A stretch of DNA of 64,000 nt from Bdellovibrio svalbardensis (GTDB lineage Bacteria > Bdellovibrionota > Bdellovibrionia > Bdellovibrionales > Bdellovibrionaceae), in assembly GCF_029531655.1 (NCBI RefSeq), contig NZ_JANRMI010000003.1, positions 496,001 through 560,000 on the forward strand, read 5' to 3'. The translations under genes and the position numbers were made by a program. Of this stretch, positions 2,746 through 15,441 are shown piece by piece; within the stretch, counting starts at the first letter, position 1; the number at the start of each line of letters is the position of its first letter. The notes below the pieces were generated by a model. It saw only the letters and a list, made by a program, of their open reading frames with translations. It was not told the DNA's origin and ran no database searches.

Positions 2746-3264
2746 TCATCTGACCGAGACAAAGACCATTGCATCGGTCCACCCTTCGCTCATCGGAATA
2801 AACCTGCGCCGAATTCCTTCCTTTTTCATTTTTAAAGCACGAGCAACTTTGATCGAGGCCTTGTTCGAGGCAGGCATCACTGCCTCAATTCGGTGAAGAT
2901 CTAAGAAGTTGTGCCCAATTTCTAGAACAGCCGCAGCGCCCTCTTTGGCAAAACCTTTGTTTCGATAGTGACTATGGATTTCATATCCTAGGTTAGCCCA
3001 TCGAAAATTTCGTCGTACGATGATGTTAATTTCAATTTCACCAAGATGTTCGTTTGTTTTTTTATGAAAGATGCCAAACACATAAGATCGGTCTTCCTTC
3101 CTAAGCTGCCTATTTTTCAGAACTTTTTTTCTAAATGAATCCTTGCCCCCATCTACCTCACAAGCTCGAATAACAGCTGTCGACCAGGACTTATAATCAG
3201 ATAGCTTATAGGGACGAACACATAGTCGGGGAGAAACTCCATTGAGCTGGTTATTACTTTTCAT
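2746..3264 (-). CDS. GNAT family N-acetyltransferase (RimJ/RimL type)
   Basis: 172 aa, the usual length for this group. It starts with the characteristic LCVRPYKLSDYKSW strand-helix, has GEIEINIIVRRNF strands, and the acetyl-CoA-binding region YRNKGFAKEGAAAVLEIG (motif A, R/Q-x-x-G-x-A type), then the IEAVMPASNKASIKVARALK segment typical of Acetyltransf_3 enzymes. It probably acetylates an N-terminal amine or small molecule; substrate cannot be read from sequence. It is transcribed alone, with an ATG start at 3264 and a terminator after it. Confidence 0.88.
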   Translation of the reverse strand: MKSNNQLNGVSPRLCVRPYKLSDYKSWSTAVIRACEVDGGKDSFRKKVLKNRQLRKEDRSYVFGIFHKKTNEHLGEIEINIIVRRNFRWANLGYEIHSHYRNKGFAKEGAAAVLEIGHNFLDLHRIEAVMPASNKASIKVARALKMKKEGIRRRFIPMSEGWTDAMVFVSVR

Positions 3265-3564
3265 GACCCAATTCTAAAGTCGACATATTCCCTGAGCAAC
3301 CATCTTGTTCATTAATTATTTAAGCCACTGTCTGACCAGAAGGGCTCACCCCAAACCAAATGGTTTCAATAGTTACCATAGTCAACAGTGCGTGGACTTG
3401 TAGGCATCGCTTGGGTACTCAGATGGACGAAATAAGAAAATCAAATTTTGTTGCGCCATAGACACAGAATCTACGTCGGTCGTACCCCCCCCGCCACCGT
3501 GGCGGTGGGCTGTATAAACCATTAGCTATCAATCCAAAAAATATCGCCAATAAAATTGGCCATA
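3265..3564. other. 300-base intergenic region with a C-tract and palindrome
   Basis: No ORF with coding character. It holds an eight-C run at 3485-3492 and the 15-nt palindrome CCGCCACCGTGGCGG at 3491-3505, which recurs at 7076 and 9323. The rest is AT-rich and should hold the promoter of the GNAT gene at its left end. Confidence 0.6.
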
Positions 3565-4488
3565 TCAGCGATCACTCTGCGCGAGAAAGTTTAAAATATC
3601 CTGATGGGCCATGGAACTAATTGGCTCAGCTTCGTTATCAATCTCATGAAGGGCACCGTGATACTGTTTCAGCGAAAAGTGCGGTGCTGTCCTTCTAAGA
3701 ATACGCCGTGTTTCCTTGGCATCGACGTAGGTGTCTTTGTTACCAGAAAGAAGCACAAATCCCTTCATTCTTCGACTCATGGGCGTGGACCGCATCATTT
3801 TGGCGGTCAGGGCCAAGTCGATTGAAAAGCAGGGGATTTTAACCGGAGAGTCTGGCTTAATCGGATCGATGTGAGGGTCTAAAATTCCCTCGCCATAAAT
3901 TTGTGTCGTTAAAGTCGGAATGGTGATCAAATCTATTTCGCCACGAAGGGGATGCTGTTCTCCTACGAAGTATTTGGGCGATATTCCGGGAGCAATCAGT
4001 ACGACAGTGTCGACGTCGCCTTCAAGGGCTGCTTGGGTATAAGCGGCCAGGCCCCCCGTAGACCAGCCAAGGATTGTTTTCTTTGGAAAGTTCGTTAAAT
4101 CTCGAGCGTGCAAATTCCAAATCTTATTTCCCAGTTTGCCAATCTCCAAAATACGCGTGTCGTCCATGGAGCCACTGGAGCCGCCTTGTCCCATGTAATC
4201 AAAAGCGATCACTCGATACCCAGCATCTGTCAGTTTTTGAAATAAAGGTTGATGGTTTACCATCGAATCGCCAAGCCCCTCGTAGAAGATGATGTTTCCG
4301 TTAAAGGGAACATTTTGATTTTCTTCAAGGTAGCCGTTGCGAATAAATACGACTCCGTCAGTCTTTAAAATGAAAGGGGTAACTTCACAGTTCCACGGAG
4401 CCGGGCAGGGGGTTAAAGAAGGCTGCTCGCTGGCTAGGGCTGATAAAGAGAGAAACAAAATAGTTAACGCCAATAGGGGTCTAGTCAT
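3565..4488 (-). CDS. Exported alpha/beta hydrolase (S33/lysophospholipase type)
   Basis: 307 aa with a signal peptide (MTRPLLALTILFLSLSALAS). The alpha/beta-hydrolase fold is evident: IIFYEGLGDSMVNH oxyanion region, VIAFDYMGQGGSSG, nucleophile elbow GWSTGG, acid near GNKDTYVDAKET and the histidine in GALHEIDNE. It likely hydrolyses an ester or lipid in the periplasm or outside; substrate unknown. The ATG at 4488 has AAAGGAAAG upstream. It is divergent to a Crp/Fnr-type regulator gene 77 bases away, which may control it. Confidence 0.85.
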   Translation of the reverse strand: MTRPLLALTILFLSLSALASEQPSLTPCPAPWNCEVTPFILKTDGVVFIRNGYLEENQNVPFNGNIIFYEGLGDSMVNHQPLFQKLTDAGYRVIAFDYMGQGGSSGSMDDTRILEIGKLGNKIWNLHARDLTNFPKKTILGWSTGGLAAYTQAALEGDVDTVVLIAPGISPKYFVGEQHPLRGEIDLITIPTLTTQIYGEGILDPHIDPIKPDSPVKIPCFSIDLALTAKMMRSTPMSRRMKGFVLLSGNKDTYVDAKETRRILRRTAPHFSLKQYHGALHEIDNEAEPISSMAHQDILNFLAQSDR

Positions 4489-4565
4489 TTTACTTTCCTT
4501 TAAGGTGAAGTGCTAGATGGGTTATAGTTGCCCTTGGGACCTTTTTCATTTACCTAGGTTAATAA

Positions 4566-5138
4566 ATGGATGCTTATACTGCTTTAAAAGACTCTCTCGC
4601 GGCTTATCTGCCTATTCCCCCTGATCAATGGCTTCAGTTTGTTCGCTATTTGAATGTCAGGAACCTGAAGGCCGACGAGGTCTATTATTCACAAGGACAG
4701 AAATACGAAGAAATTGGTTTCGTCGTGAAGGGCCTCGTTTATAATTTTTATTCGAATGATAAGGGCGAAGAGTTTGTAAAAAACTTTGTTGCTGAAGGCA
4801 GTACTGTTGCAAGTTACATGAGTGTGGTTCGAGAGCTTCCCGCCGTTTATAGCTGTGTGGCTGTTGAGGATACCCATTTAGTGACTGTTAAATATAGCGA
4901 TCTAAAAAAGCTCTACGAGTCCCATTCTTGCTGGGAGCGACTGGGAAGACTGAACGCGGAAGAATGTCTTTTTGAAACCGAACAGCGCGAGCAACAGCTT
5001 TTAATGATGAATGCAACGGAACGCTACGAGCTTTTCATGAAGCAAAACGCAGCGCTTGCCAACCGTTTGCCACAATATTTAATCGCATCCTACATTGGTG
5101 TGTCGCCAGTGACTCTTAGCCGAATTCGCGGCAAGTAG
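4566..5138 (+). CDS. Crp/Fnr-type cyclic-nucleotide-binding-fold regulator
   Basis: 190 aa. The cNMP-binding beta-roll covers residues 10-120 (LKADEVYYSQGQKYEEIGFVVKG, then FVKNFVAEGSTVASYMSV). The C-terminus has a short HTH ending in YLIASYIGVSPVTLSRIRGK, with the recognition helix at the very end, as in small Crp-like proteins of the Bacteroidetes/delta-proteobacterial kind. Arginine and glutamate that bind cAMP in true CRP are not obvious, so the ligand is unknown. It is divergent to the exported hydrolase gene and may regulate it. Confidence 0.85.
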   Translation: MDAYTALKDSLAAYLPIPPDQWLQFVRYLNVRNLKADEVYYSQGQKYEEIGFVVKGLVYNFYSNDKGEEFVKNFVAEGSTVASYMSVVRELPAVYSCVAVEDTHLVTVKYSDLKKLYESHSCWERLGRLNAEECLFETEQREQQLLMMNATERYELFMKQNAALANRLPQYLIASYIGVSPVTLSRIRGK

Positions 5139-5214
5139 CCTGCGCATACGTTATCGACTAAAGGCACTGACTTAAAAATCAGGCCTTTTCTTACCTTCAG
5201 CAAAAACTTGGTCT

Positions 5215-6159
5215 CTACAAAGCAACTTCTGTAATTTGAAGAGTTCCTTTGAAAATCAGAGCCTTAACTGCCCATGGGCCTCGCGAGCTATCTCGTACTA
5301 TTTTCGCAGACCACCCTCTCAATTGTTGGCTTACAATTGGGTAAACAGAATTTTCAGTCACACTTAGCGGGATGGTTAAAGTAGTTTCACTCATAAGAGG
5401 TCTTCCAGCGAGCGCTGTAAACTGCAACTTCAAGCTTCCGGAGCCATCAGTATTTTGAAGAAGAGCTTTATAGAAAATTGTTGGTGAAATGCAGCTGCCA
5501 TCGCCTCTGAAGTTTTCGCAGGCAACTGACACCTGTGATGACGATGAAATACCGCGTTTCACAGGAACCACATTGTTAGCAAAGCTGGCCGCATTTGTGA
5601 TGCGAGCATCGTGTGATGTGACGTCAGCTTTCTCTGGAAGAGTTCTTAAAAATTTATAGACAACTTCATGGTTAATAAGAGCGGCTTTGCTTAAAGAGTC
5701 CAGCGAAAACCAGATTTCCTGGCTTATTTCTACTTGATCAGTTCCGTCATAATAGATTGCTAGTTGTTCAATACTGCAGTTTTCGGGCACAGAGATCACA
5801 CTTCCAATGTCGCCGACGTTCGGTAGCTTTTCGTCTTTAGGCAGCCATTTTACTCTATTTTCGAAGCGCGTTAAATTATCTCGAATTTCTTGTTCGGAAG
5901 CGGGTGTTACAACTCCTTGCAGTCGGTACCCATTTTTAACTGCACGAGTGTAATCTCGGAAGACATCGCCGGTTGAAGGCATTATATCAAAACCTAATTC
6001 TTGACGTGCTTCGTATAAATCCAAGACCTCAGCAGCTTGAATCTTTCCTTCTTGATTGCGGCAGACGACGGCATTTCCGCCGCCACTAGTTGACGGCCCT
6101 ACAAGGCCCCATGACGAAGAGCAAAGTAATAAACTTGCTAACAATACTTGAGATTTCAT
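5215..6159 (-). CDS. Exported 'GGGN' protein with NHE motif, paired with regulator
   Basis: 314 aa with signal peptide (MKSQVLLASLLLCSSSWG). The mature start PSTSGGGNAVVCR carries the SGGGN signature, followed by an EVLDLYEARQELGFD helix. Near residues 160-175 is SKAALINHEVVYKFLR, whose HE aligns with HE in the exported partners at 7171 and 33194. The last 110 residues look like a beta-rich domain with C-G-DGSCIS. I know no function; the HE could be part of a metal site, but no HExxH is present. Strong RBS AAGGGGG precedes ATG 6159. Divergent from a TIGR02147 regulator 99 bases away. Confidence 0.85.
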   Translation of the reverse strand: MKSQVLLASLLLCSSSWGLVGPSTSGGGNAVVCRNQEGKIQAAEVLDLYEARQELGFDIMPSTGDVFRDYTRAVKNGYRLQGVVTPASEQEIRDNLTRFENRVKWLPKDEKLPNVGDIGSVISVPENCSIEQLAIYYDGTDQVEISQEIWFSLDSLSKAALINHEVVYKFLRTLPEKADVTSHDARITNAASFANNVVPVKRGISSSSQVSVACENFRGDGSCISPTIFYKALLQNTDGSGSLKLQFTALAGRPLMSETTLTIPLSVTENSVYPIVSQQLRGWSAKIVRDSSRGPWAVKALIFKGTLQITEVAL

Positions 6160-6211
6160 TTCTATCCCCCTTTTCGTATAGCAAAGATAGGGAAACTTTT
6201 CGATGGGCTCA

Positions 6212-6234
6212 ATTATTTAGTTATAACAAATAAT
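6212..6234. promoter_or_regulatory. AT-rich inverted repeat between divergent pair
   Basis: ATTATTT and AAATAAT, perfect 7-base arms with a 9-base spacer, lie in the 99-base divergent region between the exported protein and the regulator gene. Similar AT palindromes occur in the two other divergent pairs of this family, so this is a candidate operator. Confidence 0.4.
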
Positions 6235-6258
6235 CTAAATTCGTGATAACTTATAACG

Positions 6259-7065
6259 ATGAAAAGAGTCTTTGGCTATCATTCCTATAAAAAGTACCTA
6301 AAAGATATTTCCGAAATGCAAGGACGGGGAGCGATTTCAAAACTTGCAGAGGCTGCAGGCTGTGATCGAACGTATTTATCTCAGTGTCTTTCATCAAAGG
6401 TGCAACTTACACCAGATCATATATTAGGTCTTGCTGAATATTTAAATCTTTCTGAAGCGGAAGAAGAATACTTCCTCCTTCTTTTGTTATTTGAGCGATC
6501 TGCTTCCAGAACGGCGCAACTTAAAATCAAGAAAAAGATGGAAAAACTTAATCAGGCAGATTTGATATTGAGTAAGAAGATCGCCCAAAAGGACGACAGC
6601 AATGAACTCACGGAGATTCAAAAGGCAAAATACTATTCCAGCTGGAAATACGCGGCCCTTCATACGTTATCAAGCATCAACGAATTTCAATCTACTCAGA
6701 CGATGACCCGAAAGGCTCGTTTGTCTGAAATAGAAGGCTTAGGTATTCTCAAGGATTTGGAGAAAGCCGGGCTTCTGTCTTTCCAGAATGGGAAATGGAT
6801 TCATTCGGGCAAGAATATCCATATTCCAACAGGCTCGTCCCACAATGCTCAAAACCACATGAACTGGAGATTGAAGGCCGTCGATAGTGTGAACAATAAA
6901 AACGCGATTCACTACACAACCTTATTTTCAGTTTCCAAAAAAGATTGGGAACTCTTGCGCACGCAGCTTCTCGCTTTTATCGACCGACAAAGAGATACCA
7001 TTCATGCTTCCGGCTCAGAGGAAATGTATTGCTTTTGTTGTGATCTTTTCCAGCCGTTTGATTGA
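6259..7065 (+). CDS. TIGR02147-family transcriptional regulator
   Basis: 268 aa. The start FGYHSYKKYLKDISEMQGRG is the family hallmark and is followed by a Cro/lambda-like HTH (ISKLAEAAGCDRTYLSQCLS ... LAEYLNLSEAEEEYF, residues 25-75). The C-terminal half has the conserved KYYSSWKYAALHTL, the N-HMNWRLKAV motif and a final ... SEEMYCFCCDLFQPF segment, all shared with the proteins at 8489 and 33904. TIGR02147 proteins are abundant in Fibrobacteres and Bdellovibrionota; ligand and targets are unknown. It likely controls the divergent exported protein. Confidence 0.9.
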   Translation: MKRVFGYHSYKKYLKDISEMQGRGAISKLAEAAGCDRTYLSQCLSSKVQLTPDHILGLAEYLNLSEAEEEYFLLLLLFERSASRTAQLKIKKKMEKLNQADLILSKKIAQKDDSNELTEIQKAKYYSSWKYAALHTLSSINEFQSTQTMTRKARLSEIEGLGILKDLEKAGLLSFQNGKWIHSGKNIHIPTGSSHNAQNHMNWRLKAVDSVNNKNAIHYTTLFSVSKKDWELLRTQLLAFIDRQRDTIHASGSEEMYCFCCDLFQPFD

Positions 7066-7073
7066 TGATGAAC

Positions 7074-7134
7074 CACCGCCACCGTGGCGGCAGATTCCGG
7101 GCATAAAAAAGAAAGAAGCCAGCGCACTTCGTGG
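7074..7134. repeat. 61-nt repeat, copy 1
   Basis: Matches 9321-9381 in 58 of 61 positions. It starts with the palindrome CCGCCACCGTGGCGG and contains an A6 run and the left part of a terminator hairpin. Both copies sit just after a TIGR02147 gene. Confidence 0.9.
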
Positions 7135-7143
7135 CAGGCTTCT
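7114..7143 (-). terminator. Terminator of the exported GGGD-protein gene
   Basis: AGAAGCC (7114-7120) pairs with GGCTTCT (7137-7143), with an inner CAC/GTG pairing; read on the minus strand it is followed by TTCTTTTTTATG. It ends the gene at 7171-8343. Confidence 0.65.
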
Positions 7144-7170
7144 AGTTTCACCCTGATCTATTTTCGCTGT

Positions 7171-8343
7171 TTAGTTTTTCTTATAAATTAAGAACTGTAC
7201 TCCTTTAATAAGAAACATATATTTCGAAGGATTAGCTATCGTTCCGGCGCGAGTGAAACCATTTTTTGCTAAGCGGTCGGTCAATAACTCAAGCGAGTTG
7301 CTTTCCATGTCGCCATCTTCACAAATCAAGGTATGCGGATATCTGCTATCCGCTGGAAACACTTGAACGATGCAATAAGTTGCAGTGTTGTCATCGGCAT
7401 TTGTCGAAAATAGATCTAATTTATTCGCAAAAGTTGATAGAAAAGTGATGCTATGCTTTTCTTCCACCAGCTTGCGAGTGTCCTCTTGAAACTTCGGAAT
7501 ATTAGTTTCTTTTAAAATATATTTTTGTGCTACTAGATCCAGATCATTTGTTTCGCAAGATAGATAATATTGATAATTCCAATATCCCGGAGAAGTAACT
7601 CTTCCCACACAAAATTCACCTTTATGTTTTAGTTCAGCAGGTTTCACTACGAGTTTTTTGATTGTCACATCTTCCAAGAAGCCCGAAATTTGATTGGAAG
7701 TGTCGTACTTTGAGTCGGCCTGATCCGGTAATTCGATCTGAGCAAGTCCCGCGTACTCGTGATGAATTAGGACGTACTGATCCGATTCGTTTGTTGCATT
7801 GAATTTTGATAAATCACAGGTGATCGAACCTCTATCGGCTTGATCAAATCGGCAAACTTTCGGGGTCTTTCCAATCATGATTGGAAAGCCGCGATCATTT
7901 GGGCCCACACAGCTGATTTTAGCAGAGTCGATCTGTGCCATCATTTGATCGGAATATTGTGCGACAGTTAAGCCGCCGGGCAACTTAAGCCCGTTGGGAC
8001 CACCATCTAGTATCCATTTTCGTAGATCCTCGCGAATAACCTGAATTCTGTCTTCACAAAGATCGCCACCGCCACTGTTCATTCCGCCCATGGACTTCGT
8101 TAGTGCTTGAGCACTTTTGGAGTTCAATGCCGCCTTTTGTTCCAGTTTATCAACGCTCTGAAGATAGCTATTCAGGCCCTTGCCTTCGCTTTCGTTAGCG
8201 GGTGAAGTTTTGATGGCTCGACCGTCTACAATCTTTACGCTGGACAATTTTTGTTGAGGGCCTGGACTTTGTGCTGGTGCTGTCAGCGGTAACAACAAAA
8301 ATAGCGCTACTAGGTTCTTAAAAAGCACTTGTGAACTGTTCAT
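7171..8343 (-). CDS. Exported 'GGGD' protein with HHE motif, paired with regulator
   Basis: 390 aa from ATG 8343, preceded by AAGGAGACCTT; the longer ORF from 8370 is disfavoured. Signal peptide MNSSQVLFKNLVALFLLLPL with cleavage near APAQ. It carries the MNSGGGDLCEDRIQVIREDL signature, a Gly-rich LKLPGGLTVAQYSDQM segment, and ESDQYVLIHHEYAGLAQIEL near residue 200, followed by SKYDTSNQISGFLEDV. The HE position matches the other exported partners in this window. The family is unnamed to me; a surface or periplasmic role during host contact is speculation. Divergent from the next TIGR02147 regulator. Confidence 0.85.
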   Translation of the reverse strand: MNSSQVLFKNLVALFLLLPLTAPAQSPGPQQKLSSVKIVDGRAIKTSPANESEGKGLNSYLQSVDKLEQKAALNSKSAQALTKSMGGMNSGGGDLCEDRIQVIREDLRKWILDGGPNGLKLPGGLTVAQYSDQMMAQIDSAKISCVGPNDRGFPIMIGKTPKVCRFDQADRGSITCDLSKFNATNESDQYVLIHHEYAGLAQIELPDQADSKYDTSNQISGFLEDVTIKKLVVKPAELKHKGEFCVGRVTSPGYWNYQYYLSCETNDLDLVAQKYILKETNIPKFQEDTRKLVEEKHSITFLSTFANKLDLFSTNADDNTATYCIVQVFPADSRYPHTLICEDGDMESNSLELLTDRLAKNGFTRAGTIANPSKYMFLIKGVQFLIYKKN

Positions 8344-8439
8344 AAGGTCTCCTTCGGTTAAATGATTCAAAAGTGGGACCGTTATAATGCGACGGGCTAT
8401 TTATCTCCATATCAATTTATTAAACGATTGACGATAACT

Positions 8440-8455
8440 TTTATTATTTAATAAA
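8440..8455. promoter_or_regulatory. AT-rich inverted repeat between divergent pair
   Basis: TTTATT and AATAAA around a 4-base centre, 34 bases before the regulator ATG. It is a candidate operator parallel to those at 6212 and 33850. Confidence 0.35.
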
Positions 8456-8488
8456 GAATGTTAAGTAAATATCCGATATAACAAAGGT

Positions 8489-9298
8489 ATGTCTATTTTT
8501 GAATTTAACGATTACAAAGCATTTTTAAGATCCGAAATCAAAAAACGCCCTGGAGCAGGAAGGGGCGAGCTATCTCGGTTGTCAGAGTTTTTGGGCATCA
8601 ATGCGACGATGGTTTCGCAAGTTATGTCAGGCCCAAAAGACTTCACTTTAGAGCAGGCAAAAAAAATTGCTGAGTATTTTGTTCTTCCAAAAGTTGAAAC
8701 GGATTTTTTCATTACTCTTATTCAAATCGAGAGAGCTGGCACTCAGGATCTTAAAAATTATTTCCGAGAAAAGCGCGACGAAATAAAAAAAGAATCCCTG
8801 AAAATTTCTAATAGAATTGTCAGCGAAAAAAGACTGACTGATTTAGAGCGGTCTATTTTTTATTCCAGTCATTTATATTCTGCAATTCATCTTTTTTGTT
8901 CGGTGGGCAATGGGCAAAGCCTTGAATCTATCCTGAAGAAATTTGAAATCAGTCGACAGCGCGCCCAAGAGATTTTGCAATTTCTTCTTTCAAATGGTCT
9001 GTGCATTCAGAAAAATGGACTTTATATGATGGGAACCCAATCGACTCATGTGGAAAAAGGTTCTCCTTTTTTGATTAAGCATCATTCCAACTGGCGTATT
9101 GCTGCTATTCAGAAAAGTGAAAACATCGCCGACAACGAAATGATGTTCACCGCTAATATTTCTTTGAGCCAAAAAGACTTTGCAAAGATACGCGAAACCC
9201 TGATGCAAACGATTCAAGAAATTTCTGAAACTGTCAAAGCCTCTCCGGCAGAAGAGATCGCGAATTTAAACATCGATCTTTTTTGGATTGATAGCTAA
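8489..9298 (+). CDS. TIGR02147-family transcriptional regulator
   Basis: 269 aa. FEFNDYKAFLRSEIKKRPGA start, HTH with LSRLSEFLGINATMVSQVMS, then IFYSSHLYSAIHLFCSV, HHSNWRIAAI and a closing ANLNIDLFWID segment. This has the same layout as the protein at 6259, indicating duplication of the whole regulator/exported-protein unit. The ATG has a short AAAGG site. It probably acts on the divergent GGGD-protein promoter and on its own. Confidence 0.9.
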   Translation: MSIFEFNDYKAFLRSEIKKRPGAGRGELSRLSEFLGINATMVSQVMSGPKDFTLEQAKKIAEYFVLPKVETDFFITLIQIERAGTQDLKNYFREKRDEIKKESLKISNRIVSEKRLTDLERSIFYSSHLYSAIHLFCSVGNGQSLESILKKFEISRQRAQEILQFLLSNGLCIQKNGLYMMGTQSTHVEKGSPFLIKHHSNWRIAAIQKSENIADNEMMFTANISLSQKDFAKIRETLMQTIQEISETVKASPAEEIANLNIDLFWIDS

Positions 9299-9320
9299 TG
9301 GTTTAGATAGCTACCTTCCC

Positions 9321-9381
9321 CACCGCCACCGTGGCGGCAGATTCCGGGCATAAAAAAGCAAGAAGCCTGCGCACTTCTTGG
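9321..9381. repeat. 61-nt repeat, copy 2
   Basis: 58/61 identical to 7074-7134, in the same position relative to a TIGR02147 stop codon. It contains the terminator for the small exported protein gene that follows on the minus strand. Confidence 0.9.
9359..9380 (-). terminator. Terminator of the small exported protein gene
   Basis: CAAGAAG and CTTCTTG, 7-base perfect arms with an 8-base loop; on the minus strand it is followed by CTTTTTTATG, a T6 run. Confidence 0.75.
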
Positions 9382-9403
9382 TCTTCTTATCGATAACAAG
9401 TGG

Positions 9404-9703
9404 TTATTGGCACTCAGGATAGGTGCGCATTAAAGACAAACACTTGTTGTAAGTTTGAATGTCTTCGTTGGTATGTTCAATTCTAAAAACAGGATCATCG
9501 TTATACTGCTTCAAAGCAGAAATCACTGCTTTGTTTCCTGAAGAATAATCAAGCTTCATGAATGAAATTTGGTAGTACCCTCCATGAGTGATGTCCTCAC
9601 AGGCGCAATAGTACTTGCCAGTTGGATTGCAATTACTTGCATCTGCATAAACATTTAATGAACCAAAAAAAATGACTGCGGCAATTGAAAAAAACTTTAT
9701 CAT
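9404..9703 (-). CDS. Small exported Cys-containing protein, unknown
   Basis: 99 aa from ATG 9703, which has GAAGGG seven bases upstream; the TTG-started longer form is less likely. Signal peptide MIKFFSIAAVIFFGSLNVYA, mature about 80 aa with five cysteines (NCNP, YYCACED, NKCLSL, PECQ at the end). No family recognised. Disulfides in the periplasm are plausible. It is a single gene with its own terminator. Confidence 0.72.
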   Translation of the reverse strand: MIKFFSIAAVIFFGSLNVYADASNCNPTGKYYCACEDITHGGYYQISFMKLDYSSGNKAVISALKQYNDDPVFRIEHTNEDIQTYNKCLSLMRTYPECQ

Positions 9704-10079
9704 TTGATTTCCCTTCAAGATCGGGACTACACGATGTAATCAATCACTACCTTCTGCAAATGAAAGGCCAGGTTACTAATTGCAATGCGCACCATGCGGG
9801 GTGTTAGTTGAGGCAAATCTCTAAGAGCCTAAAATCGAATATATTCGCGCTGGCTTATTGATTCCCCGCTGTCGTGGCCTAGCGCCATCATATCGGTATC
9901 GGTCGCCAAAGGGGCGCCGCCAAAGACCAACCCCTAATAACCAACATTACAAGCGATCTTAGCCGGAGACAAAATTGTCTGGTTATGAAGCCAACGCCAA
10001 GATTTGCCGCCGAGACCCCAAAAAGATTGGATTTTAATCACAACTTGAACCTATATCATTTCTAGATACACTTATACGT
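9704..10079. other. 376-base region without a clear gene
   Basis: No intact ORF. It should contain the promoter of the small exported protein and of the methyltransferase. On the minus strand 9829-10050 reads as a coherent frame with one internal TAG (see findings), so it may hold a decayed gene. Confidence 0.45.
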
Positions 10080-12746: not shown

Positions 12747-12920
12747 TCATCTATTCGTGTCCGCCATTTTTTGCTCCAAAAAAATTCCTCTATTGCTCCA
12801 ATTTCCAATTTCAAAGCGACGCCGCCAGGCCAGCCAATCATCCCGTGCGCAGATCCTTTCACGAAGTAAGAATTTACATCCATCCTTATTGATGGCAACA
12901 TCCTCAACATATGCTTTCAT
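12747..12920 (-). CDS. Possible small basic/Trp-rich protein
   Basis: 57 codons from ATG 12920 (MKAYVEDVAINKDGCKFLLR ... RDDWLAWRRRFEIGNWSN). It overlaps the first bases of the divergent ArsC fusion gene. The composition looks protein-like but there is no clear RBS and no family, so it could be chance. Confidence 0.22.
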   Translation of the reverse strand: MKAYVEDVAINKDGCKFLLRERICARDDWLAWRRRFEIGNWSNRGIFLEQKMADTNR

Positions 12921-13816
12921 GGAAATTCTATCACAACCCCCAATGTAGCAAGAGTCGCGAAGCTTTAAGCTTGTTAGAAGCTGAAGGACAAGATTTTCAA
13001 ATTATCGACTATATTAAAGAACCACTTTCCGTTGAAGATCTCTTGAAAATGATTGCTCAGCTGAGGGGACCACTTTCATCCTTAGTGCGAGCAAAGGAAG
13101 CAGATTTCTTCCATGCTCCGTTTGATTTGACCTCGGCTGAAGAGGTCGCTTTGCGCCTTTCTGAAAAACCGCATCTAATGGAACGTCCTATTCTGCAAGG
13201 AAAGGGTTCCGCGGTTATTGGACGTCCTTTAGAAAACTTAAAAGCCTTACTTAAAGGCCAATACACGACTCAACCTGCATTTAAGTTTTTATCGTTTCCC
13301 GGAAAAATTCATCTCATCAACACTGATCAAGAGCTCCAAGCGATTGCGCTTGCACTTGAATCCCATAAAGAGCTTGGTTTTGACACTGAGACTCGTCCCG
13401 CTTTTAAAAAGGGCGAGTCCTATCCCGTGGCCTTGTTGCAATTGGCGACGGATACAGATGCCTATATTATTCGTCTTAAGCACATCAAAAATATTGAAGT
13501 TATTAAAAATATTTTTGAGAATCCTGCAGTGGCTAAAGTAGGTGCTGCGATTAGAGATGACCTCAAACAATTGCAGAAGCGATTTCATTTCCAACCGCAC
13601 GGCTTTATTGAACTGCAGACCGTAGCTAAAAATAAGAATCTTAAGAATATTGGTCTGAAAGGTATGACTGAAGAAGTTTTGCAGGCCACGATTACCAAAG
13701 GGCCCAAAACCACAAACTGGGAAGCGCAAGAATTAACTGAGAAGCAAATTCTGTATGCGGCAACGGATGCCTGGATCGGCCTGAAGCTTTATCAAAAGCT
13801 GACTTCCGATCCTTAG
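12911..13816 (+). CDS. ArsC-family / DEDDy 3'-5' exonuclease fusion protein
   Basis: 301 aa in one uninterrupted frame. Residues 1-117 are an ArsC/Spx-type thioredoxin-fold domain: FYHNPQCSKSREAL with Cys12, and the ERPILQ element at 91-96 with AVIGRPLENL. Residues 130-301 are an RNase D-like exonuclease: Exo I FDTETRP (D158, E160), Exo II GAAIRDDLKQL (D217), Exo III Y282 and D286 in YAATDAW, so all DEDDy positions are present. I know no characterised protein with this pairing. The reductase half could be redox-sensing for an RNA- or DNA-trimming enzyme. No strong RBS precedes ATG 12911. Confidence 0.88.
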   Translation: MLSWKFYHNPQCSKSREALSLLEAEGQDFQIIDYIKEPLSVEDLLKMIAQLRGPLSSLVRAKEADFFHAPFDLTSAEEVALRLSEKPHLMERPILQGKGSAVIGRPLENLKALLKGQYTTQPAFKFLSFPGKIHLINTDQELQAIALALESHKELGFDTETRPAFKKGESYPVALLQLATDTDAYIIRLKHIKNIEVIKNIFENPAVAKVGAAIRDDLKQLQKRFHFQPHGFIELQTVAKNKNLKNIGLKGMTEEVLQATITKGPKTTNWEAQELTEKQILYAATDAWIGLKLYQKLTSDP

Positions 13817-14604: not shown

Positions 14605-15441
14605 CTAGGACATAATTTCCGTACTCGGAAAGAATGAAAAATTGAGCTGGTACAGTCTTCGATTGAATAAGTGATCGACGTTTCTTTTGGCCGACTGCTC
14701 CTGGACAAATGTTTCGAAATCTCTCAGGAAATCCTCGAACTCGCTCGCGCTCATCGCAACAAAAAGATTTCTAAAACGACGTTCGTGCGCTTCATATTTT
14801 TCGATAGCTTCTTCCGCACGCCTCCAAGCGTCCTTATAAAATTCTTTGTAACCAAGACCTCTGAAGTTATTTGGAAGACGCCATGATTTTTTCACCACGA
14901 CCCATTTGCTTTCGCCGCCGACCTCTTGCTTTTCAAGCAGTCCCATTTTTTCAAGCTTGCTGCACGAATCAAAGAACTTCTGTACTGAGATCCCCAGAAT
15001 CTGCGCTGCTTTCGCAGTGTCTTTTGCAACATCTTCAAAACTTAGAAGAGTCTGAATTCGGGGCAATAGTTCATCGGCTAGAAACTCATAGTGATTTTCA
15101 ACCTCCAAGAAGTCTTCTGCGTTCATCTGAAAGCGCAAAAGTTTTTTAGCAAAAGTACGTTTTTGTTCACCGGTTTTACATTGATTGTAGTTAACAAGGG
15201 TCATGAAGTAATCAGATTCTACATCGTTGAACTGCAATGCCGCGACAAATGCCTCTGCGATACTTTCACTGATTGGGCGTTCACCCATAACAACCATACG
15301 TAAGTAAGCTCGATTCTTTAAGCCGAGCTCTTGTGCCCACTTTGTATAAGAGAAAACATCCAGACCTTTTCGATACTCATAATAGTGTTGAAGAAAAAGG
15401 ACGACATTTTGATAAGAAAGAATGGCAGGCTTTTGAATCAT
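14605..15441 (-). CDS. TIGR02147-family transcriptional regulator
   Basis: 278 aa. LSYQNVVLFLQHYYEYRKGL start, HTH with YTKWAQELGLKNRAYLRMVV and an IAEAFVAALQFNDVESDYFM helix pair, then the wHTH-like AAQILGISVQKFFDSCSKLEK and a final RLYQLNFSFFPSTE segment. It is more diverged than the three + strand members: the H-x-x-WR motif is missing. It lies upstream of and co-directional with a lipoprotein gene rather than divergent from one. Confidence 0.82.
   Translation of the reverse strand: MIQKPAILSYQNVVLFLQHYYEYRKGLDVFSYTKWAQELGLKNRAYLRMVVMGERPISESIAEAFVAALQFNDVESDYFMTLVNYNQCKTGEQKRTFAKKLLRFQMNAEDFLEVENHYEFLADELLPRIQTLLSFEDVAKDTAKAAQILGISVQKFFDSCSKLEKMGLLEKQEVGGESKWVVVKKSWRLPNNFRGLGYKEFYKDAWRRAEEAIEKYEAHERRFRNLFVAMSASEFEDFLRDFETFVQEQSAKRNVDHLFNRRLYQLNFSFFPSTEIMS

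Follow-up and report, generated by a model that had tools for sequence, protein, structure and literature searches.

TIGR02147 regulators are paired with putatively exported, possibly zincin-like proteins across Bdellovibrionota

Introduction

In the ImmR/ImmA, DdrO/IrrE and Xre/COG2856 pairs, a helix-turn-helix (HTH) regulator is encoded beside a zincin-like gene, often in one regulator-first operon. ImmA cleaves ImmR and IrrE cleaves DdrO, and the proteases of the known XRE-metalloprotease pairs target cytoplasmic repressors (PMC10538038, PMC7907104). The gene pairs reported here are arranged in a similar way, with a possibly zincin-like partner. They lie in a window of 64,000 nucleotides from Bdellovibrio svalbardensis, by which we mean the whole stretch of DNA that was analysed, and recur across the phylum. 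They also resemble the Rgg/PlcR-type (RNPP) regulators, whose adjacent genes encode exported peptides, in that a regulator stands beside a product that appears to be exported.

The regulators studied here belong to TIGR02147 (Fsuc_second) and PF14394 (DUF4423), a family whose entry gives no tested function and whose annotation, where examined, holds no relation to a partner. We found no paper naming TIGR02147 in the literature searched and no earlier report of the pairing described here. A preliminary description of this DNA had stated that no experimental account of the system was known, and we likewise found none in that literature; the one mention of DUF4423 concerns Bd3700, which is among the proteins raised during growth in prey (PMC12546842).

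Results

Two divergent units in the window

Inspection of the window bore out the preliminary description in that two neighbouring units have the same design, a minus-strand, apparently exported protein with SGGG[ND] and HE motifs encoded divergently from a plus-strand TIGR02147 regulator. Partner 1 of unit 1 (type A; 5215-6159, minus strand) shows in translation a signal-like N-terminus, SGGGN and ALINHEVV. Together with the alignments, the translation also places a cysteine pair, HE at residues 164-165, S182 and R186, and the alignments and a core model delimit a putatively zincin-like core at about residues 22-200, followed by a variable tail. Partner 2 of unit 2 (type B; 7171-8370, minus strand) carries SGGGD and VLIHHEYA, and its start is more probably the ATG at 8343 than the codon at 8370. 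Over the core, partner 2 is 42% identical to the protein paired with another TIGR02147 gene. No Pfam, NCBIfam, PHROGs or PADLOC family matched either window partner above cut-off, and an Rfam scan of positions 3000-10000 gave no match.

Regulator 1 (6259-7065, plus strand) and regulator 2 (8489-9298, plus strand) score 65.5 and 64.4 bits against TIGR02147 and 64.3 and 52.5 bits against PF14394, above the curated cut-offs of 50 and 30 bits, respectively. A profile search against PDB sequences assigned about residues 13-99 to a lambda/Cro/HigA-like HTH and about residues 110-178 to a winged-helix-like region, from which the TIGR02147 regulators are predicted to be DNA-binding proteins. The starts of the divergent genes are 99 nt apart in unit 1 and 145 nt apart in unit 2 (118 nt from the upstream TTG).

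Control region 1 (6160-6258) holds a candidate operator, the inverted repeat AGTTATAACAAAT / ATTCGTGATAACT at 6219-6231 and 6239-6251, which is 85% complementary. Control region 2 (8344-8488) contains CGATAACTT and ATATAACAAA. Over 12 divergent regions GTTAT/ATAAC occurs 15 times against a shuffled mean of 5.5, for a motif picked after inspection, and we regard this inverted repeat as a candidate operator of the divergent control regions.

Other genes of the window were also noted. A third TIGR02147 gene (14605-15441, 110 bits) has no GG/HE partner adjoining it. Judged by eye, 12911-13816 reads like a fusion of an ArsC-type N-terminus with a 3'-5' exonuclease domain, and 1489-2505 on the minus strand resembles a replication-relaxation family protein of mobile elements.

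The units are not recent duplicates

The preliminary description had called the units tandem duplicates. A recent duplication is rejected because the two regulators are only 29% identical and occupy different parts of one clade of the regulator tree rather than being sisters, and because the exported proteins belong to separate subfamilies, A (partner 1) and B (partner 2). On the tree the window regulators are 2.5 substitutions per site apart, and the nearest relative of each is a gene of another genome. The regulator nearest to regulator 1 (44%; locus L186) likewise has a divergent type-A partner.

A repeat does follow each regulator, as had been noticed, with a length of 62 nt rather than 61. 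Its copies at 7073-7134 and 9320-9381 are 95% identical; the first comprises the palindrome CCGCCACCGTGGCGG and a hairpin, and the second includes a terminator-like hairpin on the minus strand (stem 9380-9359, then CTTTTTT). These are the only full copies in the genome, which has one further 38-nt partial copy, and the palindrome has four exact genome sites, three of them within the window. Since only 2 of about 26 TIGR02147 genes, those of the window pair, carry the repeat, we consider it a local feature and no mark of the module, and we rejected it as a component of the system.

A further minus-strand stretch (3491-3566) directly follows the stop of a hydrolase gene. In it, 58 nt match the final codons of regulator 2 (NLNIDLFWIDS and beyond) at 81%, and the palindrome of the 62-nt repeat comes next. 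It may be a relic of another unit or of a gene conversion event.

Pairing in the genome and across the phylum

The genome has about 26 TIGR02147 genes, of which about 17 have an exported GG/HE or HExxH neighbour and about 9 do not; these 17 include locus L042, which shows the HE region only, and locus L052, at which the HE gene is the third in a divergent run. Single-protein searches with either window partner matched only genes beside other TIGR02147 genes. At locus L051 of this genome a convergent pair was seen, below the profile threshold. Two TIGR02147 genes adjoin genes for an exported trypsin-like protein (L055:3190-3906) and an exported subtilase (L043:2444-3850), so other exported proteases may replace the usual partner.

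Twelve partners of this genome, all adjacent to TIGR02147 genes, were used to build core profile A2, whose matches elsewhere were free in position. Searched in 19 related genomes of the order at E<=1e-3, it gave 100 matches over 16 other genomes. Ninety-five of these have a TIGR02147 gene no more than 3 kb away (47 among the matches listed, plus 48 of the other 53 by local DNA), and TIGR02147 genes with about 1 kb on either side are estimated to make up roughly 1-3% of such genomes. The exported core is present in 158 of 291 Bdellovibrionota genomes and 87 of 163 genera. Twenty loci were retrieved from beyond the window's order, and each has a TIGR02147 gene at a distance of at most 3 kb. Of 7 loci from Bdellovibrionales, Bdellovibrio or Bdellovibrionia assemblies, the only named relatives found, 6 are paired. 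Altogether 141 of 149 distinct partners have TIGR02147 on the examined stretch and 8 are without it. The pairing is near-obligate across Bdellovibrionota. The association goes far beyond chance, because about 17 of about 26 genes are paired here and the pairing recurs throughout the phylum. The system is amplified, as had been proposed, both in this genome and phylum-wide.

Two partner orthologues without TIGR02147 (L091:704-3561 and L098:2971-4217) adjoin a STAS-like gene and another exported gene, and the former is also preceded by an ECF-type sigma factor; the assignments to sigma and STAS were made by eye. A scan of viral contigs with partner alignment A1 gave 36 pattern matches, none of them confirmed.

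Orientation and co-variation

With direct adjacency defined as a distance under 400 nt, 123 pairs were obtained from the 149 partners: 106 co-directional with the regulator first, their reading frames often overlapping, 16 divergent, 1 reversed and none convergent. The preliminary description would have been contradicted by random orientation, which these counts do not show. Divergence is nevertheless not the general design that it had taken it to be, as co-directional operons are the rule. The convergent gene at 7171-8370 was considered as a partner of regulator 1 and set aside, because no convergent pair was found among the 123.

On the regulator tree (122 rows, FastTree), 13 of 15 divergent regulators, including both window regulators, fall in one 18-member clade (support 100) in which partner types A, B and C are all present. 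Divergence is therefore mostly a property of this regulator clade, kept while partner types changed. Partner type changes 21 times on the tree against a shuffled mean of 53, a difference that common descent explains in part, and those regulators whose partners carry HExxH group in a single clade (98). Regulator lineages track partner type.

The exported partners and their core

A home-made heuristic detected a signal-like N-terminus in 135 of 149 partners and 8 of 133 regulators, and the partners look exported by this measure. The "envelope system" of the preliminary description is at most a prediction from such N-termini.

Profile comparison joined the subfamilies as homologous, A with C (hhalign E 3.6e-8) and C with B (1.1e-10). 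All three share nearly invariant positions: a GG close to the N-terminus of the mature protein, a helical HE, and a Ser that follows at a distance of about 16-21 residues. Type A additionally conserves the cysteine pair, D, E, D, Y and R, and in type B (n=13) GGD, HHE and S are invariant. The retention of HE, like that of GG, in nearly all sequences despite low overall identity argues for a function of HE. HExxH is absent from the window partners (HEVVY, HEYAG) and from all A, B and C partners listed.

The core model of partner 1 (179 residues, pLDDT 80, pTM 0.82) has as its leading fold matches (VIA), all weak at Z 2.5-3.4, AsaP1, deuterolysin, selecase, jannalysin, SPRTN and IrrE/PprI, and the leading weak matches of the full-length model are likewise zincins. 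Foldseek searches with the partner models against PDB and BFVD gave no match at E<=0.001; a SprT-like protein tops the BFVD rows for the core model at E>0.001. PhageMetallopep is touched with weak scores by 8 of 17 type-A proteins. By sequence against PDB, alignment A3 had no match and A2 and A9 had chance-level matches only. The models and profiles are thus weakly but consistently suggestive of a zincin-like core (GG...HE...S). The reading of the HE motif as the mark of such a core was absent from the preliminary description.

A second exported family carries the full motif. The partner at locus L046 has HEMGHH, 72 of 291 genomes contain relatives of it, and all 20 loci of this type that were checked keep HExGHH and stand beside TIGR02147 (20 of 20 in each case). 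This family could not be joined to the HE families by comparing profiles, which leaves a shared ancestry unproven. The HExxH lineage probably consists of active zinc peptidases. In the main lineage, which includes the window partners and has no second His, the active site would be rebuilt or the proteins would act by binding.

Discussion

The reading we favour, to which we give a probability of about 0.6, is that of a phylum-wide two-gene module in which a dedicated TIGR02147 regulator locally controls the adjacent exported zincin-like partner. The regulator would be a cytoplasmic one-component protein, composed of the HTH, the winged-helix-like region and DUF4423, that acts on the shared operon or divergent promoter. 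It would most likely be an autoregulatory repressor that a specific cue releases, and each exported protein would therefore be made separately. The partners may be diversified periplasmic or secreted hydrolases, or binding proteins derived from hydrolases. What the data show is the linkage, the signal-like N-termini of the partners, the co-variation and a strict orientation rule, with the partner downstream or divergent and almost never convergent; the regulation and any enzyme activity are inferred.

A stronger form of this idea, which we hold only tentatively, is a phylum-specific signalling and effector module. Each regulator would serve a single exported protein of zincin descent, by which it might also be informed, and that protein would have a rebuilt HE...S active site. 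If true, these bacteria would possess a large repertoire of exported enzymes or sensors, each under its own switch.

Export-and-return signalling of the RNPP type, in which the regulator senses the exported protein or a peptide of it, would suit an exported partner that is downstream or divergent and the many paralogues with co-varying regulators. We judge it improbable, since the partners are large and folded, with conserved cysteines and the HE core, and are not short pheromones. Pfam and NCBIfam searches of the regulator gave no peptide-binding repeat domain.

About equally improbable is a toxin-antitoxin-like or selfish pair, in which the partner harms the cell or its neighbours and the regulator silences it. 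The tight co-directional, often overlapping pairs, their many paralogues and the resemblance of the regulator HTH profile to HigA antitoxins would agree with such a pair, but the HigA likeness is limited to the HTH fold, the partners appear to be exported, and searches of PADLOC and PHROGs gave no family for them.

A switch of the ImmR/ImmA or DdrO/IrrE type, in which the partner protease would cleave its own HTH repressor in the cytoplasm, is brought to mind by the HTH regulator adjoining a zincin-like gene, with frames that often overlap, and by IrrE/PprI among the weak fold rows of the partner core. However, 135 of the 149 partners start with a signal-like N-terminus and should therefore be kept apart from the regulator. 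The window partners, moreover, are without HExxH, and neither they nor type-A members matched the ImmA/IrrE Pfam family up to E 1, which makes this switch very unlikely. Passive linkage, whereby the genes were inherited and duplicated together without a functional link, deserves just as little credence: both families have many paralogues in the genus and the clustering of partner labels on the tree is partly common descent, yet adjacency and the orientation rule persist phylum-wide despite the 21 changes of partner type, the 18-member clade of the window regulators mixes types A, B and C, and the sequence-unlinked HExxH family is equally paired.

The near-obligate pairing connects TIGR02147, an uncharacterised family of regulators that can reach dozens of copies in one genome, with a superfamily of exported proteins not described before. 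Many genes of Bdellovibrio-like bacteria are without known function, and scores of 'hypothetical' genes would become testable pairs. The pairing offers a direct route to what TIGR02147 regulators control, and HE...S is a possible catalytic site related to zinc peptidases.

Among known systems, the ImmR/ImmA, DdrO/IrrE and Xre/COG2856 pairs differ from the present ones in both members: the regulator here is of another family, TIGR02147/DUF4423, and the partner has a signal-like N-terminus and no ImmA/IrrE family match. With the minigluzincins (selecase, jannalysin), SprT/SPRTN and the aspzincins (deuterolysin, AsaP1) the partners share a weak likeness of core fold and the HE on a helix, whereas the second zinc-ligand His is missing from the window partners. 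To our knowledge, the GG motif and the late Ser are no feature of any of these three groups. Compared with the Rgg/PlcR-type regulators, the neighbour of the regulator here is a folded protein of about 200-800 residues.
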